Source: Neocallimastix lanati (nom. inval.)
Taxonomy: Eukaryota > Neocallimastigomycota > Neocallimastigomycetes > Neocallimastigales > Neocallimastigaceae
Assembly: GCA_016946835.1 (NCBI GenBank)
Contig: JACVTC010000043.1
Coordinates: forward strand, 367,501 to 405,000
Direction: 5' to 3'
Length of the DNA stretch: 37,500 nt
Part shown: piece by piece, positions 6,930-32,589 of the stretch
How the letters are laid out: every line of letters begins with the position of its first letter
How positions within the stretch are numbered: the stretch's first letter is position 1
The notes under the pieces: model-generated
Seen by the model: the letters and a program-made list of their open reading frames with translations, nothing else
What the model was told of the DNA's origin: nothing
Databases searched by the model: none
Position numbers and translations under genes: made by a program

Positions 6930-7667
6930 TTAAATGGTGTCATATATTGAATGAATATAATCAAAATTCGTTGAAAATACAGATGATGTTTCATTAGAGA
7001 TACTTTGATGTGCATCTTCATCATCACTTAATTCAACAATTTTGGGGGTATTAATTTCTTCATTAAGGTTAAAACAATTATAATTGTTTTTTTCTCCTTT
7101 TGATTTTTTATTTGAGAGTTTAAAACGTTTCATTGATAATGATGAAAATATTAATAATTCGGATGAAGATTTCACTTTAGGCAAAAGATCCATATCTATA
7201 TTATCTAAATAATCATCCATTTCTTCTTCATCCATTGTATCCAAATTAGTAAATATATCGGTATCCTCTACTTCACTATATGAACGTTTTTTATTTATTT
7301 TCTTTGTAGTTTCTAATGGTGATAATGGAGTATTTTTACGTATTTTATTATTATTAGTATTGATATAAGTATTCATATTGGTATAACTTCTTCCTGAAGT
7401 GGTATCTATATCAATATCAATATCATAATTATATGAAGAACAAGGGGAAGCACAATAATTATCAATGTCTGAAAATAAAGAATAATCTTTTAATTTTCTT
7501 TCTGTTTGATTTTCTAATATTTCAGTTAATTCGGGTGTACTTGGAGAACTTTTAGGTGAAGGATAATCCACACAACACTGATTTTCACAATAACAACCAT
7601 CAAAACAATATGTATTTTGACGTATGTTTGTATTTGAAATAAATGAAGGATCAGTTATTATTGACAT
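6930..7667 (-). CDS. Unrecognised acidic/basic low-complexity protein, probably nuclear
   Basis: A complete, intronless 245-aa ORF with clearly higher GC than its flanks. I do not recognise the family. Visible parts: an N-terminal Cys cluster (C21, C25, C27, C31, C32; CFDGCYCENQCC); a Ser/Pro segment (36-45); about six Ser/Thr-Pro sites in all; a DIDIDID stretch (82-88); a basic KKINKKR (122-128); a strongly acidic, hydrophobic-studded region (132-162, ending DNIDMDLL); a second basic patch KRFKLSNKKSK (180-190); and KIVELSDDED (209-218). The two basic patches look like nuclear localisation signals. The acidic part could be an activation domain, and IVEL followed by DDED fits a SUMO-interacting motif. 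These roles are inference. There is no membrane segment. The start ATG at 7667 is preceded by an A-rich leader. Confidence 0.75.
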   Translation of the reverse strand: MSIITDPSFISNTNIRQNTYCFDGCYCENQCCVDYPSPKSSPSTPELTEILENQTERKLKDYSLFSDIDNYCASPCSSYNYDIDIDIDTTSGRSYTNMNTYINTNNNKIRKNTPLSPLETTKKINKKRSYSEVEDTDIFTNLDTMDEEEMDDYLDNIDMDLLPKVKSSSELLIFSSLSMKRFKLSNKKSKGEKNNYNCFNLNEEINTPKIVELSDDEDAHQSISNETSSVFSTNFDYIHSIYDTI

Positions 7668-9210
7668 TATTTTTTCGTTTGGTTTTATAAAAAATATATT
7701 TATATTTACTAATTTTTTTATAATTTAATAAATATGATTTTTATGTTTATTTATTTTCTCAATTAATGCATGTAATGATAGTAAGGAACCATTGAAAAGA
7801 AAATAAAAAATAAACTTATCAAAAACAAAAAATATATTTTGTATTTGATTTTTAAATAAGAATGAATATATAATTATTTAATAATTCTATACTTGATTTA
7901 TATGTATAATTATCTATGTTTGGGTATTAATTTTATTCATATATATTATTGAAATTTAATTTATAAATTTATAAATAATAATTCATAATATATATTTAAT
8001 ATTTTTATTTTTTTAAATAAATGATTACACAAGACTACTGAAGCTTTTTAAATTAGCTTAATTTAATTATTATACCTTTTTACTATTTAAAAAAAATATT
8101 ATTAAACGTTATTGCATTATTAAAATTATTTAATATTTTAGCAAAAATATATATATATTAATTCTATATCATTGAATTTATTAAATATTTATAAAACTTA
8201 ACGTTATTTATTAAACTTGTATATATATTTAATATTAATAAAAAAAAACAATTTTCTAAAAAAAAAAAAAAAATAAAAAAAAAAAAGGACATTTATTGTT
8301 TATTAAATATTTATTTTTTTTTTTTCTCTCATTTCATTTATTATAAATCTTTCATTAAAAAATATATATATAAAAATAATATATAAAAATAAATTTATAT
8401 ATTATGAATATATAATTTTTTTTATTTTTTATTTTTTATTTTTTTTAATTATAAATTTAAATTTTATTTGTTAGTTTAAAATTTATAATTGACAAATTTT
8501 AAAGTAATAACAAATATATAAAAATATATTTTAATATATTGTATTTTTATAATGAGATTGGAAAAAATATAACTAAATAAAGAATATATAAGAATAAATG
8601 TTAATATATTTAAATTATTTTTAATTTAATTAAAGTTTATATTTAATTTAATTAAGTATTACTATATAATATATTGAATTTATTGTAATTAATTAAAAAA
8701 TCATATATATTAAATATATTTATTTTCAATATATTTTAAATATAATAACTGCAATGAAATATACTATATATTACAAATTAAAATTGTTTTATTTACAAAA
8801 AAATAACAATTTTTTAAAAAAGCATATATTGTAATTAACTGTATATATATTTAATTAAATCAATTACAATAGTGTACATATATTACGATACATTAAAAAA
8901 TAAAATCTAGAAAAAAATATTTTTAAAAAAAAAATAAAATATAAATAAACCTTATTGTCTAATATTCCATATTAATTATTTATTTTATGAATGTTTAACT
9001 AAATGAACTACTTGAACTACTTTTTATTAATAATAAAAAAAAATAGTTCAATTTAATATCTAAAATAATCTTTAATCTATTTAATTTTATATATATATTA
9101 CTAGGATTTATACCATAATTAAAAATATCAGAATTATGGGAGAGTACTATTATTGATAAAAGGTTTAATGACATCAATAAATAATATTTAAAGATCTAAT
9201 TTAATAACTT
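7668..9210. other. AT-rich intergenic DNA, no gene seen
   Basis: The 5' flank of the unrecognised - strand gene followed by about 1.4 kb of nearly pure A/T. A 60-codon frame on the - strand at 8995-9177 has no protein-like composition and ends in a Ser run, so it is not called. Confidence 0.7.
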
Positions 9211-16900: not shown

Positions 16901-19054
16901 TTATTTTGATTGTAAATAAAAATAGATAGAATAATTATTTTTACTAACGGCTAAGGATGCCGCTGTAGCCCCTTCATTATTTGTCATCTTTGTGTTCGCT
17001 CCATGTTCCACTAAATATTTTACAATATCAACATAATTTTTTAGGGAGGCGTTCATTAATGCCGTATATCCTTCATTATTTTTAATGTTGACTAAGGCAT
17101 CATGCTCTACTAAATATTCAACCATGCTGGTATGCTCTTGATCTACGGCATACATTAAGGCGGTAAACCCATACGTGTTCACTTCATTAACATCCGCTCC
17201 CTTATCCACTAAATATTTTAATATATGCTCTAACCCATGTTGAGCTGCAAGGATAAGCGCCGTATTTCCATCATAATTTCTATCATTGATATTAACATGA
17301 TACTCCTCCAATAAAAGTTGAATCATTTCTTCATGAGCATATTGAGTGGCAATTAAAAATGCAGTATCACCATCACTATTTCTTTCATGAATATTAGCGC
17401 CATTCTTGATGAGGGTCCTTACCATTTCTTTATGTCCCATTCTTGCTGCTTCGATAAGAAGAACAGATCCTTGATTATCTTTTTCATTTAAATTTGCTTT
17501 ATTATTAATAAGTAATTCAAAGAGTTCAGGATGGACATCATAGGATGTGGCACTGAGCGCGGTTTCACCTTCTATATTTTTAACATTGACATCCGCTCCC
17601 TTTTCAATAAGTGATCGTACAATATTGATGTGTCCATATTTTGAAGCTAATAATATTGGGGTGTTTTGTTCCTTATTACTTTTATTAATATCAGCACCAT
17701 GCTCTATTAATAAGTTACAGACTTCTTCATGTCCATTTTTAGCTGCTAATAATAATGGTGTATTCTCCTTTTGATTGACTTCATTAACATCTATTCCATC
17801 TTGCTCTAAAATAAATCTAACCGTTTCTAAATGACCTTGTTCTGAGGCATAAATTAATGCGGAATTACCTTGACTATTTTTTTTAAGAAGATCGACTGAT
17901 TTTTCATTTACTAAAAGTTTTACAAGATTTAAAATTCCATGATAAGCCATCATCATCACCAAAGTATCTCCATTATTTCTTTCTACATTTATATCTGCAC
18001 CATGATCTATTAAATAATTTATAATTTCTTCATGTGCATTTTCAGAGGCTTCAATTAATAAACAATTACCGTAACAATCTTTTTCATTTACATTAGCTCC
18101 TTTAGAAATTAAATATTCCATTAAATTAAGATATCCATTTTGGGCTGCAAACGTTAATGCCGTATAACCTTTACTATTTTTTGCATTAATATTGGCTTCA
18201 TTTTCAATTAAATATTTAACAATCTCTTCATAATTTCCTATTGTAGCATACATTAATGTAGAACAACTTAATATATCACTATCATTAACATTTGCTCCAT
18301 GTTCAACTAAACATTTAACAATGGCAGCGTAACCTTTTTCAGAGGCAAAAATAATTGCTGTTTTATTATCGGTATTATCTCTCAAATGTAAATTGGCACC
18401 TTTATCTGCTAAACAATTTACAATGGCTTCATTGTTTTGTAAAACAGCTTGAATTAATGCAGTATAACCCTGAACATCTTGATCATCAATATTTGCATTA
18501 TGTTCAACTAAAAATTGTACCACCTCCTTATTTGAATTATAGGATGCTAGCATTAATGCTGATGTACCATCTTTGTCCTTTAAATTAACTTCAGCACCAT
18601 TTTCTACTAGATATCTAACTATATTTATATATCCATAGGAAGAAGCTAACATTAAAGCTGTAGTATCTTTATAATTTTCTTCCTCTACTTTCATTAAATT
18701 TTTAACAAATTTATTATAAAATACATCTTGTATTATATTTGTTTTATAAATACTTTCTAAATTTAAATATGCCCCATTTTGATGTAGAAATTCTATTATT
18801 GGAAGTTGACCATTACGTGCAGCAAACATTAGTGCTGTCCAACCATTATTATCAATTTCATTAATGTTGATACCACGTCCTACTAAATATTTTACAAGTT
18901 CCAAATTTCCATTTTGACATGCATACATCAAAGCATTCCAACCTAATTCATCCTTTTCATTTATATTTGAACCATTATCTATCAGTTGTTTTACTAATTT
19001 ATCATTTCCATTTTGGGAAGCAATAATTAAATTCTGTCCTAATGAATTTGCCAT
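16901..19054 (-). CDS. Ankyrin-repeat protein, about 21 repeats, single exon
   Basis: An intact 717-aa ORF made almost wholly of ankyrin repeats of 33-34 residues. The core pattern is TALMxAxxxGxxxIVxYLVxxGAxVNxKD. I count about 21 units, the first and last degenerate as capping repeats. The only clear break is an insert at about residues 100-128 between repeats 3 and 4 (NLESIYKTNIIQDVFYNKF and on). There is no signal peptide, membrane segment or second domain, so it is probably an intracellular protein-binding scaffold; the partner is unknown. The ATG at 19054 follows an A-rich leader (AATAAGAAA). There are no introns, although most other genes here have them. The part encoding the C-terminal repeats (about 16950-17650) is visibly richer in G/C than the N-terminal half. 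Arrays like this are abundant in anaerobic fungi. Confidence 0.95.
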   Translation of the reverse strand: MANSLGQNLIIASQNGNDKLVKQLIDNGSNINEKDELGWNALMYACQNGNLELVKYLVGRGININEIDNNGWTALMFAARNGQLPIIEFLHQNGAYLNLESIYKTNIIQDVFYNKFVKNLMKVEEENYKDTTALMLASSYGYINIVRYLVENGAEVNLKDKDGTSALMLASYNSNKEVVQFLVEHNANIDDQDVQGYTALIQAVLQNNEAIVNCLADKGANLHLRDNTDNKTAIIFASEKGYAAIVKCLVEHGANVNDSDILSCSTLMYATIGNYEEIVKYLIENEANINAKNSKGYTALTFAAQNGYLNLMEYLISKGANVNEKDCYGNCLLIEASENAHEEIINYLIDHGADINVERNNGDTLVMMMAYHGILNLVKLLVNEKSVDLLKKNSQGNSALIYASEQGHLETVRFILEQDGIDVNEVNQKENTPLLLAAKNGHEEVCNLLIEHGADINKSNKEQNTPILLASKYGHINIVRSLIEKGADVNVKNIEGETALSATSYDVHPELFELLINNKANLNEKDNQGSVLLIEAARMGHKEMVRTLIKNGANIHERNSDGDTAFLIATQYAHEEMIQLLLEEYHVNINDRNYDGNTALILAAQHGLEHILKYLVDKGADVNEVNTYGFTALMYAVDQEHTSMVEYLVEHDALVNIKNNEGYTALMNASLKNYVDIVKYLVEHGANTKMTNNEGATAASLAVSKNNYSIYFYLQSK

Positions 19055-25609: not shown

Positions 25610-26912
25610 ATGTCTCTTTCATTTATTAAGCCAATTTTAAAGTCTTCAGTTGCTGTTAATACTTTAGCACCATTAAATGCAGCTCTCTTAAATAAACGTA
25701 ATTTTTCTCATGCTCTTCCAAATCAATTTTTCTTTAACAAAAAATCATCAAAAGTTCAAGTTGAAAAACTTTCATTAGCAAATTGGAAAATTGGAACACC
25801 ACAAAAGATTCCAAGTGGTAAAACAGTAACATATGAACCAAAAGAAATAAAAAATTTATTAGACTTATTCTTAGGAACTGTATGTCTCTAAAATATAAAA
25901 ATAAGATTTAATATTTTATATAATTTTAATTTTGAAATTTGACATGTATTATTTATTTATTTATTTAATATATTTTATTTTAATAAAAAAAATTTAAATA
26001 ATAATAATAATAATAATAATGTAATAATGAATAATATATAATTTTAAATTTTATTTAAAAAAAAATTATAATAAAGATACCAATTCCTACAAGTCTTATT
26101 ACAACTGTTTCTTCTGAAGGTGTTGCTAATACTGCCCCATTTGCCCTTTGTAACTGTATTAATGCTAATCCACCAATTATTAGTCTTACTGTTGGCAAAA
26201 AGCCAGATGGTAGTGTAAAGGATACACAAGTTAATATTGATGCTACAAATGAATTTAGTGTTAATATCGTTAATGAAGACTTCCTTGAGTAAAAATCATC
26301 TATTTTTAAATTAATTAATAAATCTAATAGATAAAATAAAATAAAATAGAATAAAATAGAAAAATATAGAAAAAATTATGTTATTTATTATTTACTATAT
26401 ATATTTTATAAATATGATATAATGAAAAATATTATATTGTTATATTAAAATGATATGCATAAAGTTGAATTATTAAATTGATTTTATATCAATTTTTATT
26501 ATATATAACTTTATATATATATATATTAATTAATTATTCAACCTTTCATTCATTAAGATCTTCAGTAAGTGCAGCAGCTCCTCTTCCACACAATGTTTCT
26601 GAATTCGAAAAAATAGGATTTACTAAAAAGCCATCTTCTGTTATTAAGGCTCCATTAGTTGCACAAAGTCCAGTAAGCTATGAATGTAAGGTCATTTCAC
26701 GTAATCCAATCACTGATAAGGATGGAAAAGAAACTTCTGTTATCTATAACGCTGAAGTAGTTAAAATTCATATTAATGATGAAGTTTATGATAATAAAAC
26801 TGGAAATATTAACTATGATAAGTATAAATTACTTACAACTGTTAATAGTTTCAAATTTGATAGAATTAATTCTTTCATAGAAGTACCTAAACCAGCACCA
26901 TCAAAACAATAA
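25610..26912 (+). CDS. Flavin-reductase-like FMN-binding protein, organelle-targeted, paralogue 1
   Basis: Three exons, 25610-25879, 26077-26288 and 26558-26912, with GT-AG junctions and matching phase; 278 aa. The split-barrel FMN-binding domain of the flavin reductase/flavoredoxin family covers about residues 75-265. Visible blocks: GVANTAPFALCN, NPPIISLTVGKKPDGS, VKDTQVNI, EFSVNIV, then after intron 2 EFEKIGFTKKPSSV, PLVAQSPVSYECK and EVVKIHIND. Members bind FMN and move electrons from NAD(P)H or redox proteins to flavin or other acceptors. The N-terminus (MSLSFIKPILKSSVAVNTLA ending KRNFS) lacks acids, is rich in basic/hydroxyl residues and ends in an R-x-F-S cleavage-like motif, so hydrogenosomal or mitochondrial import is likely. 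Unlike its two neighbours it lost the HYSKINNI block and ends in a different tail (IEVPKPAPSKQ). Confidence 0.88.
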
Positions 26913-26940
26913 AGTAATTAATAATAAGAATTACTAAAAT

Positions 26941-26988
<48 letters not shown>

Positions 26989-27505
26989 GGATAATAGGAT
27001 TAATTTTATTATCGTTATAAATAAACTTAAAAATAAATAATAATAATAAAATTCATAATAAAAATAAATGCAAATAAATAAATAAATAAATAAAAATTAA
27101 ATTAACGTAAACAAAGCAAAAAAACAAAAAAAGAAAAGGAAAAAATTTATATAAAAAAAGTATTAGTTCAATTGAAAGATTTAATTATAATTATTTAAAA
27201 ATAATAATAATAATAATAGAAAATTAGCTTTTCTTTTAAAATTATTACATATTTTTTGACTCTTACATATTAATATAATATATATATATATTATATTAAA
27301 TTAATATGAAGAGTCAAAATAATACTTTTTTTTTTTAATTTGTTATACTTAATAAATTATAAATATTTTAAAAATTTTTTTTTTTTTTAGAATGAAATTT
27401 ATATATTTAAATAATAGTATGTAAATAATAAGCTTTTCAAATATAAAAATTTCTTTTGTAAAATATACATTATTTTAAACATGTTACGGTTGTTTTATTA
27501 TATGA

Positions 27506-27548
<43 letters not shown>

Positions 27549-28144
27549 GAGTTATTTAAAATTTTTTAATAATGTTTTAATTTTGTTGTTAAAAATATAT
27601 TATATAAATAATAATATATATGTATTAAATATATATGTATATATATATGTATATATATAATACTTAAATATTTAAAGTGATCAAAAATAATTTTTAGAAA
27701 TACTGATGAAACCTACACTGATCTTAATTATAAATATATTATATAATGTATTATATATATTATATATATATTTATTTAAAAATTTAGTATTTATATATAT
27801 ATATTTTTTTAATTTTTTTTAATAGTATATTCAATATATTCAATATATTATAATATATCATATTAAAGTTTAAGCTTATTTAGAATAGATATAAAGTATT
27901 AAATAATTTATGCTTTTTATTAATTCTTTATATAGTAGAAGATATTATTATATAATATTAGATATATTTAATTTTATTTAATTTTATTTTATTTTTATTT
28001 TATTTTTAATAATAAAATTCTATTCATTGTTTTTATTTTATTTTTATTTTTTTTTTTAGTACTTTTATAATTTCTTAACTTTCTTTTTTATTAACTTTTA
28101 TTAGGTTTTTTTTTTTTAAAAAAAAAATTTTTTTTTTGAAAAAA
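26913..28144. other. Intergenic DNA between flavin-reductase paralogues 1 and 2
   Basis: AT-rich. It holds a 41-nt A run (26945-26985), an imperfect long hairpin (27254-27319, separate entry) and TA-rich dinucleotide tracts. No gene. Confidence 0.8.
27254..27319. repeat. Long imperfect inverted repeat (fold-back)
   Basis: TTTTGACTCTT (27254-27264) pairs with AAGAGTCAAAA (27309-27319), CATATTAA pairs with TTAATATG, and TA-rich inner arms continue inward with one small bulge on each side. The stem is some 28 bp. The outer 11-bp arms contain G and C, so they are not just A/T symmetry. It may be a small fold-back or MITE-like element, or a structured 3' element. Confidence 0.5.
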
Positions 28145-28505
28145 ATGTCTCTTTCATTGACTAAGTCATTATTTAAATTACCAACTACTAATGTTATATC
28201 TACACTTAGTAACCATGTTGTTTTTAAGCGTAATATTTCACGTACCATTCCAACCCAATTTTTCTTTGGAAAAAAACCTGAATTTGAGTTAAAAAAAATT
28301 CAAATTCCAAATTCATCTTGGAAAAAAGGTTCTAAACAGAAGATTCCACCAGGTAAATTAGTTTCCTATGAGCCAAAAGAATTACATAATATGTTAAGAT
28401 TTGGTTTAGGAACTGTAAGTTATTATTAATTTTTTTTTTTTTTCTTTATTCTTATATGTAATATTATAAGATTAGATTTATAAAGAATTATAATTAAATA
28501 TATAG

Positions 28506-28560
<55 letters not shown>

Positions 28561-29518
28561 GAAATTGAGAAATTTCAAGATTAAAGGATGAATTTTATTT
28601 AGTTCATAAATTAATAATATTGATACTAATATTAATACTAATATTAATATATTTTTTTTTCTTTTTATCTTTTTTTATAATTTTTTTCATTTATTTTATT
28701 ATTATGAATATTATGAAAAATATATTTGTATTAATATAAAAGTTACAAAGCACTACTAGTTTAATTTCTACTATATCTGCTGATGGTGTTGCTAATGTCG
28801 CACCATTTGCTTTTTGTAATTTAATTTGTCCAAACCCACCAATTATTTCTGTTACTGTTCACAAAAAGCCAGATGGTTCTTTAAAGGACACTCAAGTTAA
28901 TATTGATGCTACTAAAGAATTTACTGTTAGTATTGTTAGTGACTGGTTCTTTGAGTAAGTTATTCTTATTCTTATTCCTATTCTTCTTTTATATATATAT
29001 ATATTTATATATTTATAAATATTATCTACTATTCCATTTTTCATTATCAAGGATTAAATAGATATATGAATATATAATACTTTACTCTAATATGTAAAAA
29101 ATATTTTTAAAAATATATTAGTAATTAATAATTAATTTATAATCATGATATGTAAATATATATTCGATATTTATATAGATCTGCTATTTCTACTAATGAA
29201 AATCTTCCACCAGAAGAAGATGAATTTGAAAAGATTGGTTTAACAAAAATTCCAGCTACTGTTATTAAGCCACCATTAGTTGCTCAAAGTGCAGTTAATT
29301 TTGAATGTAAACTTGTTAATCGTACTCCATTTTATGATGAAAATGGTAAGGAAACCTCCGTTGTTTTCAGTGGTCAAGTTGTTAAAGTTCATGCCAATGA
29401 TGAATTCTATAATAATAAGACTGGTGAATTTGATTATGAAAAATTAAAGTTAATTACTAGAGTTGGTGGTCACTATTCAAAAATTAATAATATCATTGAT
29501 GCTGAATTTGTTAATTAA
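28145..29518 (+). CDS. Flavin-reductase-like FMN-binding protein, organelle-targeted, paralogue 2
   Basis: Exons 28145-28414, 28743-28954 and 29179-29518; 273 aa. The first ATG in the MSLSL context is at 28145; the upstream TTG-AAA-AAA codons are not needed. The domain blocks match those of the family: DGVANVAPFAFCN, NPPIISVTVHKKPDGS, LKDTQVNI, EFTVSIV, DWFFES, DEFEKIGLTKIPATV, PLVAQSAVNFECK, VVKVHANDEF, and a C-terminal GGHYSKINNII. The presequence is MSLSLTKSLFKLPTTNVIS running to KRNIS. Exon 2 is exactly 212 nt, as in both neighbours, and the junctions fall at the same codons. It is the most family-like at the C-terminal end. It has EGxxDEFE in the form of an EEDEFE extension after ENLPP. 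Intron 1 contains a T run (about 28521-28551). Confidence 0.88.
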
Positions 29519-31405
29519 AATTAAAATTAGAGAAAAAAAAAGAATAAAATAAAATAAAATAAAATAAAAACTAGTTAAAAGAATATGTATATATATTAAT
29601 ATAGTATTTATTTATGAGTATCGTAAATGGTAAAACATTATAATAAGAAAGATATAATATAAAATTAATAAAATCAAATTAATCAAATGAATAATACATA
29701 TTTTTAAAATAAAAAAAAAAAAAATCCAAGTAAATATGAATATAAAAAAGAAATATGTATACAAATATAAAAAATGAAAATAATTATAAATATGCAAATA
29801 AAAAAATAAATATGAGTAAGAAAAAAAAATTAATAATAATAATTATTTTTTTTTTTTTATTTTTTATTTTTTATTTGGTTTTTATTTTTTGTTTGGTTTT
29901 TATTTTTATTTTTATTTTAATAATTAAATGAAAAATATAAATTTATATATTAATATTTAAAAAATAAGTTATTAAAAAAAATATGGATAATTCATTAAAA
30001 ATTAATAAAATAAATATATATTTTAATTATCTAAAAAGTTAATTCATAATTTATTTCTTTTTTTTTATTTATTTATTTATTCCTTTTATTTATTTATTTG
30101 TTTGTTTGTTTATTTATTTATTTATAATTAAAAATAAAAATTTGATTATTTATTTCATTTAGTATTAAAAAAATAAAAAAAAGAGAAAATAAAAATATAT
30201 TAATATATTTATTATATTTATTATTCATAATAAAATAAATATCAATATATATTAAAGATAAAAAAAAATATATATATAATAGATAAAGTCTTTTTTTTTA
30301 TATATATATCATTATTATATGTAAATTTAAAAATTAATAATTATATATATATATTTTAAAAAAAATATAATAAAAATAATTATTTATAATAATTAATAGT
30401 AATTATTAAAATACCTTTTGCCATAAAAATGTTTAATCTTTTTTTTTTTTTCTTATTTTTATTTTATTTTATTTAATTATAATTATTATTATAATAAATA
30501 TATTATTAAATTATTCATAAATTGTTAAATTAATGATGTGTTTAAAAGGTTAGATAATACTAATTATTCATTTATAATATTTGATTTTTTTAGGTATTTG
30601 TATAAATATCGTATGCTTTTATTATTACTAATACAATACAATAAAATTGCAATATTCTTAATATATATTTTATTAAATTTGTCTTTCAATATTTTTTTTT
30701 TTTAACACTCTTTTAATATATGAGCATCTACTTTATTGTACATTCCAATTTTAATATATTGTAAATTATATACAATAATTTAATAATTATATATTTATTA
30801 TATTTATATTTATTTTTGTCTAGTTATTAGTTCTTATTTAATGTGATAATAACTAACTATTATTTATTAAATGTTGATAAAATTAGTAGATTTCTGTGTT
30901 GTACAAAAATGTATTTTTATATTATATATTATATATTATATATATATATTTTTTTAAAAAAAAAATAATAAAAAAAAGTAAATAATAAAAAATTGCATAA
31001 TTAGTTAATTTAAAATAATTTATGATTCCGAAGTTTTTAATTTAAAAATAATTTGTGATTGTTACACATATAAATTATAATAAATAAGATTCATTTTTAT
31101 TTTATTTTTTTTTTTATTTTTAAGTATTTTTTTAATTTGTAAATTACTAAAAATGAACCTGATAGGAACTTAAATATATATTAATATTATTCTCTTTATC
31201 CTTTTGTAATACAATAACTCATAATTAAAAAAGATATTGTAATTAAAGGTATCATGTAATCCATGTTGATTTTAAGGTATTTTTTTTTTTTTTTTTTTAT
31301 TTTTCTTTTTCTTTTTTTATCATTAATTAAATATATTTGTAAAAAAATAAATTTATTTATATTTTTTTTATCTTTATTAAAAATAGAGAAAAATAACAAT
31401 TAAAA
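29519..31405. other. Intergenic DNA between flavin-reductase paralogues 2 and 3
   Basis: 1.9 kb of A/T sequence with TTTA and TTTG repeats (about 30064-30125). The few frames are Phe/Tyr/Ile- or Lys-rich and not credible. The last few hundred bases must hold the promoter of paralogue 3; no motif was recognised. Confidence 0.75.
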
Positions 31406-32589
31406 ATGTCTCTTTCAATTGTAAGACCTTTAATTAAATTACCAACTTCTGTTAATACTATATCAGCTATTGGTAGAACTATATCTTCAAGACGTAACTT
31501 CTCAAATACTACTCCAAATCAATTTTTATTCAATAAGAAACTTAATAAAGTTGAATTTGAAAAAGTTCAAATCCCAAATGCTAATTTTAAAATGGGAACA
31601 CCACAACCAATTCCAAAAGGAAAGTCTATTGAATTGGAACCAAAAAATGTTAATAACATGTTAGGATTTTTCTTAGGAGCTGTGAGTATTATATATATTT
31701 TAAGATATTAAAATAAATAAATAAACTCTGTAATTATATGAATAAAATTATTATTATAATATTATATATATGTGTTTGTTAAATTAAAGTAGTTAGTTGT
31801 ATTATTGTAATTTTAATATAAAACGAAACTAATATATTTATTTATTGCAATAAATAATTTATCTAAAGTTACCAAGTAGTATTAGTCTTGTTTCTTCCAT
31901 TTCACCAGAAGGTATTCCAAATGCTGCCCCATTTGCTCTTTGTAACTGTATCAGTTATAATCCACCAGTCATTTGTCTTACAGTTGGTAAAAACCCAGAT
32001 GGTTCTGTAAAGGACACTCAAGTTAATATTGATGCTAACAATGAGTTTGCAGTAAATGTTGTTAGTAAGTGGTTCTTTGAGTAAGTATTAATTATTAATT
32101 AAATTTATAATTAAAAATATTTAAAAAAAATATAGATACTATACTTTAAATATACGTATTTACATACATACATACGTACATATATTTATATATTATTAAA
32201 TATATAATATTTTATATATTTTATTATAATTACCTTTATTATTAATTAGATCCTCACTTACTGCTGCTGCACCATTTCCACATGAAATTTCTGAATTTGA
32301 TAAAGTTGGTTTCACTAAAAAGTCATCATCTGTTATAAAGACTCCATTAGTTGGTCAAAGTGCAATTAGCTTCGAATGTAAGGTTATTTCTCGTAATGCT
32401 TTTACAGATAAAAATGGAACTGAAACTGCCGTTGCTTATAATGGTGAAGTTGTTAAGATTCATGTTAATGATGAAGTTTATGATGTTAAATCTGGAAACT
32501 TTAATTATGATAACTTAAAGTTAATGCTTTCCCTTGGTGATCATTATTCAAAGATTAACAATATTATTGATATTAACTCTTCAAACTAA
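31406..32589 (+). CDS. Flavin-reductase-like FMN-binding protein, organelle-targeted, paralogue 3
   Basis: Exons 31406-31681, 31869-32080 and 32250-32589; 275 aa. Blocks: EGIPNAAPFALCN, NPPVICLTVGKNPDGS, VKDTQVNI, EFAVNVV, KWFFES, SEFDKVGFTKKSSSV, PLVGQSAISFECK, VVKIHVNDEV, then GDHYSKINNIID. The presequence MSLSIVRPLIKLPTSVNTIS ends in SRRNFS. The intron 1 donor is GTGAGT, where the paralogues use GTATGT and GTAAGT at the same codon. The sequence is closest to paralogue 1 in the middle (FALCNC) and to paralogue 2 at the C-terminus, which suggests recombination or retention of the ancestral tail. Its codons are typical of the two neighbours and nothing suggests inactivity. Confidence 0.88.

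Follow-up and report, generated by a model that had tools for sequence, protein, structure and literature searches.

What are the three similar genes that stand together at this locus of Neocallimastix lanati, and where would their products work? The window, which is the whole analysed stretch of 37,500 nt, has a G+C content of 10–22% per 2,500-base step and belongs to a genome assembly of 199 Mb in 762 contigs. Genes A, B and C (25610–26912, 28145–29518 and 31406–32589) are placed head to tail on the + strand, and each contains three exons (Table 1). The original prediction of a head-to-tail trio with a common exon structure is borne out by the spliced models, which were built by hand without transcripts. 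Each of the genes has a second exon of 212 nt, and all six introns are bounded by GT and AG. The equal lengths of exon 2 are explained by common descent. Comparison of the introns of A–C with one another (blastn, n = 6, E 1e-3) reveals no non-self match, although the low-complexity filter hides much AT-rich sequence here. The predicted MSLS start and the basic leader with R-N-F/I-S are present in A, B and C.

Table 1. Exons and introns of the three tandem genes (positions are those of the window).
Feature	Position	Strand	Basis or remark
Gene A exon 1 (leader, linker, first domain residues)	25610..25879	+	Spliced model; R-N-F-S at residue 30
Gene A intron 1, 197 nt	25880..26076	+	GT..AG
Gene A exon 2, 212 nt, PF01613 core including NPP and KDT	26077..26288	+	Spliced model, Pfam, residue table
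Gene A intron 2, 269 nt	26289..26557	+	GT..AG
Gene A exon 3 and stop	26558..26912	+	Spliced model; protein A 278 aa
Gene B exon 1 (leader)	28145..28414	+	Spliced model; R-N-I-S at residue 29
Gene B intron 1, 328 nt	28415..28742	+	GT..AG
Gene B exon 2, 212 nt	28743..28954	+	Spliced model
Gene B intron 2, 224 nt	28955..29178	+	GT..AG
Gene B exon 3 and stop	29179..29518	+	Spliced model; protein B 273 aa
Gene C exon 1 (leader)	31406..31681	+	Spliced model; R-N-F-S at residue 30
Gene C intron 1, 187 nt	31682..31868	+	GT..AG
Gene C exon 2, 212 nt	31869..32080	+	Spliced model
Gene C intron 2, 169 nt	32081..32249	+	GT..AG
Gene C exon 3 and stop	32250..32589	+	Spliced model; protein C 275 aa

Three other reading frames noted in the window lie on the − strand. 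A single-exon gene at 16901–19054 encodes a 717-aa ankyrin-repeat protein (Pfam Ank_2, E 2.1e-147). The ORF at 1710–2036 contains an RNA recognition motif (RRM_1, E 2.4e-12), and a 264-aa reading frame at 6930–7724 has no Pfam match at E 0.01.

Pfam Flavin_Reduct (PF01613) is found in A (61.8 bits), B (58.9), C (57.1) and in two further copies described below, D (61.6) and E (67.4). The E-values of the five matches range from 1.9e-18 to 2.9e-15, and the curated cut-off of the family is 27 bits. Among solved structures, six distinct chains match copy B at E ≤ 0.001, with 3bpk at the top (E 6.3e-24), and the same six chains match a profile of A–C at E ≤ 0.01. The second-best solved relative is 4z85 (E 7.1e-13 with copy B and 2.9e-20 with the A–C profile). 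The FMN-binding protein 1eje (E 1.2e-12) and flavoredoxin 2d5m (E 1.7e-6) are also matched by copy B. The original prediction had assigned the genes to the flavin-reductase-like family with an FMN-binding split barrel and had pointed to a domain search as the check. That search returned PF01613 for A, B and C, and this match, together with 3bpk as the best solved relative, supports the assignment. NCBIfam gives one match at chance level (E 0.094), and none of the PHROGs matched copy B. The array is a real PF01613 gene family of a known kind, in a possibly unusual place.

The two further paralogues, D (contig C9) and E (contig C757), come from a protein search of the genome with B. The counts of this search are lower bounds, which puts the family at five genes or more. 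The tandem family of three that had been predicted is thus real as a trio, but not as the whole family, two members of which lie on other contigs. In the models of D and E, also built by hand, the introns are at the same positions as in A–C. D is 276 aa with an exon 2 of 209 nt and starts with MSLS; E is 286 aa with an exon 2 of 212 nt and starts with MYLS. Protein identity is 53% for A-B, 58% for A-C and 53% for B-C, and ranges from 45 to 58% over all five copies. By the NG86 method, dN among the five copies is 0.30–0.49 and dS is 0.63–1.13, the latter being rough in so AT-rich a genome; dN/dS among A–C is 0.40–0.56. A recent tandem burst finds no support: A–C differ at 42–47% of residues with an NG86 dS of 0.63–0.74, and they are not grouped together in the tree.

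No other close match to exon 1 of gene B is seen in the genome. Inspection by eye shows the genes for malic enzyme, hydrogenase, SCS-beta and NuoE in sets of two or four very similar copies, spread over different contigs. These could be either separately kept haplotypes or duplicated segments.

The relatives outside the genome used for comparison are 11 prokaryotic proteins, one of them archaeal. This set is small and chosen: it contains the 4 loci found in one run of the genome_contigs scan and 7 plasmid records picked for variety among 40 listed of 274 matches. The plasmid scan matched these 274 among 72,556 records, all at less than 60% identity, and the viral_contigs scan gave no match. 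The 11 relatives show 29–40% local identity to the best-matching copy. A tree computed under LG+G4 from 184 columns unites the five copies in a single clade, apart from the 11 prokaryotic relatives, with a support of 100/100. The order inside the clade is weak (ultrafast bootstrap 60–80, SH-aLRT 8–78); E is nearest to the prokaryotic branch, and A–C are not a supported clade.

The low identity to the 11 relatives and to all plasmid matches gives no support to a recent bacterial transfer; an older one may have taken place. With a comparison set of prokaryotic sequences only, a bacterial origin of the family is neither supported nor refuted. In the portion of the source available, three strains of Penicillium roqueforti have three or four PF01613 domains outside the SORBUS cluster and one inside it (PMC9200314). 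These domains weaken the earlier statement that flavin reductases of this family are mostly bacterial. Because they occur in another fungus, the family may equally have an ordinary fungal origin. The word "flavin" is absent from the main text, with its table of 35 transfers, in the accessible portion of PMC10978972.

Within PF01613, a P-R-P signature and a KDT block mark the NTA-B-like group. The P-R-P signature, located before the first strand, is seen in all 11 prokaryotic relatives and in none of the three tandem copies. The residues at this position are PIP in A, QST in B, PSS in C, PRS in D and PRP in E. In the five PDB alignments shown, PRP is present in three, and the other two start too late to tell. 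The KDT block, which we take to be a phosphate contact, is kept in all five copies and in 10 of the 11 prokaryotic relatives, the remaining one having KDS. All 11 prokaryotic relatives have Arg in the late x-R-L block; among the five copies, only B has it. APFS is changed to APFA in all three tandem copies, and N.AP and EC are kept in all five copies. Since A–C are devoid of P-R-P, their activity has probably diverged from the ancestral one. Flavin reductase activity is not assured, because PRP is absent in A–C and the late Arg is present only in B. Copy E is the most conventional member of the family.

The N-termini share another feature. The first acidic residue (D or E) is found at residue 52 in A, 46 in B, 50 in C, 47 in D and 70 in E. 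The first 45 residues contain none in any of the five copies, compared with 9–12% afterwards. The probability of such a stretch by chance is 0.3–1.4% per protein, the copies not being independent. The leader status of prokaryotic relatives is judged only from the 4 annotated ones, with reading frames of 197 to 241 residues, as the other starts were set by script. The R-3 processing motif is RX(F/Y/L)|(A/S), and that of Arabidopsis ICP55 is RX(F/Y/I/L)|(S/A)(S/T), according to the available portion of PMC4986872. In four of the five copies (A–D), RX(F/Y/I/L)(S/A) is located at residue 29–30; C and D carry a second one earlier, and the box of E is C-N-F-S, with C in place of R. When the first 60 residues are shuffled 5000 times, the motif appears anywhere in 310 (A), 342 (B), 715 (C) and 688 (D) shuffles. 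A, B and C all combine a leader free of acidic residues with an R-3 type site, and a mitochondrial-type leader is plausible for them.

Malic enzyme, hydrogenase, SCS-beta and IscU are hydrogenosomal enzymes of gut fungi by published knowledge, not by data on this genome, and serve as controls. Malic enzyme has eight genome matches, of which three are shorter copies without a located start and one is a fragment. All four long-form copies contain AKRTFFAP near residue 24–31. [FeFe]-hydrogenase has seven genome matches, and TRSLATAA is present in both full-length copies. The hydrogenase matches and the malic enzyme leader, which is of the Neocallimastix type, point to an anaerobic gut fungus. One of the two copies of SCS-beta contains QKRFLSVHEY and one of the two copies of IscU contains LIRSYHE, both located in upstream frames taken as exons of these genes. 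The strict R-3 motif is found in two of the four control families, and malic enzyme and IscU fit only a looser pattern. The motif is seen in none of the four contrast genes (rubrerythrin, the ankyrin-repeat gene, the RRM gene and the gene at 6930). Rubrerythrin has one genome match, the frame of which starts close to the first Met without a leader. One of the two hydrogenases of N. lanati is predicted to be cytoplasmic in Table 3 of PMC8561657, as far as the available portion of that source goes.

An amphipathic helix was also considered as evidence for targeting, but the measure did not discriminate. When the hydrophobic moment is computed over residues 1–34, 935 (A), 1470 (B), 705 (C), 1221 (D) and 100 (E) of 2000 shuffles are as high. 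The corresponding numbers are 156 and 146 for malic enzyme, 777, 774 and 685 for hydrogenase and IscU, and 116 for the ankyrin-repeat protein. The measure scored a non-organellar protein well, but not hydrogenase and IscU. From the leader and its candidate processing site, import of A–C into the hydrogenosome is likely.

A–C thus belong to a nuclear gene family of a Neocallimastix-type fungus, five or more in number, that encodes PF01613 proteins of the FMN-binding split-barrel type. In the reading proposed here, each protein would be synthesised with an N-terminal leader (about 30 residues), taken up by the hydrogenosome and cleaved at R-N-(F/I)|S. The protein in the matrix would bind FMN and might pass electrons from NAD(P)H, supplied for example by hydrogenosomal malic enzyme, to free flavin, oxygen or nitro compounds. 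Its mode may be flavoredoxin-like, without a dedicated monooxygenase. We give roughly an even chance to such an imported PF01613 family acting in the matrix as a flavin-based electron carrier or as a reductase, with import, FMN binding and catalysis all predicted. It is rather doubtful that a hydrogenosome-specific PF01613 branch of at least five genes with altered signatures constitutes a soluble flavin electron-carrier module, with oxygen or another acceptor as the sink for NAD(P)H.

The proteins might instead be a flavin reductase family of the cytosol or another compartment, with an N-terminal extension that has no targeting role. The hydrophobic moments of A–D, not above shuffles, and the box of E, without Arg, are consistent with this. 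Yet the 45 residues without acidic residues in all five copies, the R-N-F/I-S box conserved in four of them, and the similar N-termini of enzymes known as hydrogenosomal, contrasted with the absence of the motif from the four contrast genes, make a location outside the hydrogenosome unlikely. A nitroreductase-type role in the detoxification of nitro compounds taken in with plant food is suggested by 4z85, deposited as 2-nitrobenzoate nitroreductase, being the second-best solved relative. Family membership, however, says little about the substrate, and a eukaryote offers no operon context; this function is quite unlikely. It is improbable that A–C no longer carry out the redox reaction and are now flavin-binding or chaperone proteins: KDT, N.AP and EC are kept in all five copies and dN/dS is below 1, although PRP is lost and APFS is replaced by APFA in all three tandem copies, and the late Arg is lost in A and C.

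Neither a luciferase-type partner (PF00296) nor an HpaB-type partner (PF03241) has a match in the genome in an exon-by-exon search; PF00296 is matched in 10 and PF03241 in 4 of 14 control genomes. The same domain search with PF01613 itself showed three of the five known copies (C, D and E), intron-split genes being missed, and the missing partner genes are therefore weak evidence. A classical reductase component feeding reduced flavin to a monooxygenase would need a partner that escaped this search, as two PF01613 genes did, and the best solved relative is indeed a monooxygenase component B. With PF00296 and PF03241 unmatched in this imperfect search, and with oxygenation making little sense in an anaerobe on general knowledge, such a role is highly improbable.

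The route by which fungal hydrogenosomes get rid of NAD(P)H is unsettled, and a flavin module in the matrix would be a concrete candidate for it. The authors of the N. lanati model state that the hydrogen dehydrogenase reaction, run in reverse, is very unfavourable in energetic terms, and they count a bifurcating hydrogenase and nuoE/nuoF among the open points (PMC8561657). Table 3 of that paper contains no flavin reductase, and its main text does not contain the word "flavin" (PMC8561657). If the matrix carrier is real, the flavin electron-carrier module would be a part absent from that model. If the proteins are cytosolic, the array is an ordinary duplicated gene family. No publication joining anaerobic fungi or Neocallimasti- with flavin reductase was found in a search outside of which most subscription journals lie.

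Among known systems, component B of NTA monooxygenase (3bpk), the group of which is presumably DIM6/NTAB, shares with A–C the PF01613 domain and the NPP and KDT blocks. It differs from them in that A–C have introns and an N-terminal leader, lack PRP, and have no luciferase-type partner found. Flavoredoxin 2d5m and 1eje, which we take to be prokaryotic, belong to the same family as A–C; their match is weaker than that of 3bpk, and the leader lies outside it. The flavin reductase of Trichomonas vaginalis is presumably a cytosolic protein with a flavodoxin-like fold, unlike that of A–C. Among the matches listed, the partially available literature on hydrogenosomes and flavin reductase is mostly on T. 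vaginalis, and it is there that this enzyme is named together with hydrogenosomes. In another fungus, Penicillium roqueforti, g12061 contains PF01613 as A–C do according to the available portion of PMC9200314.
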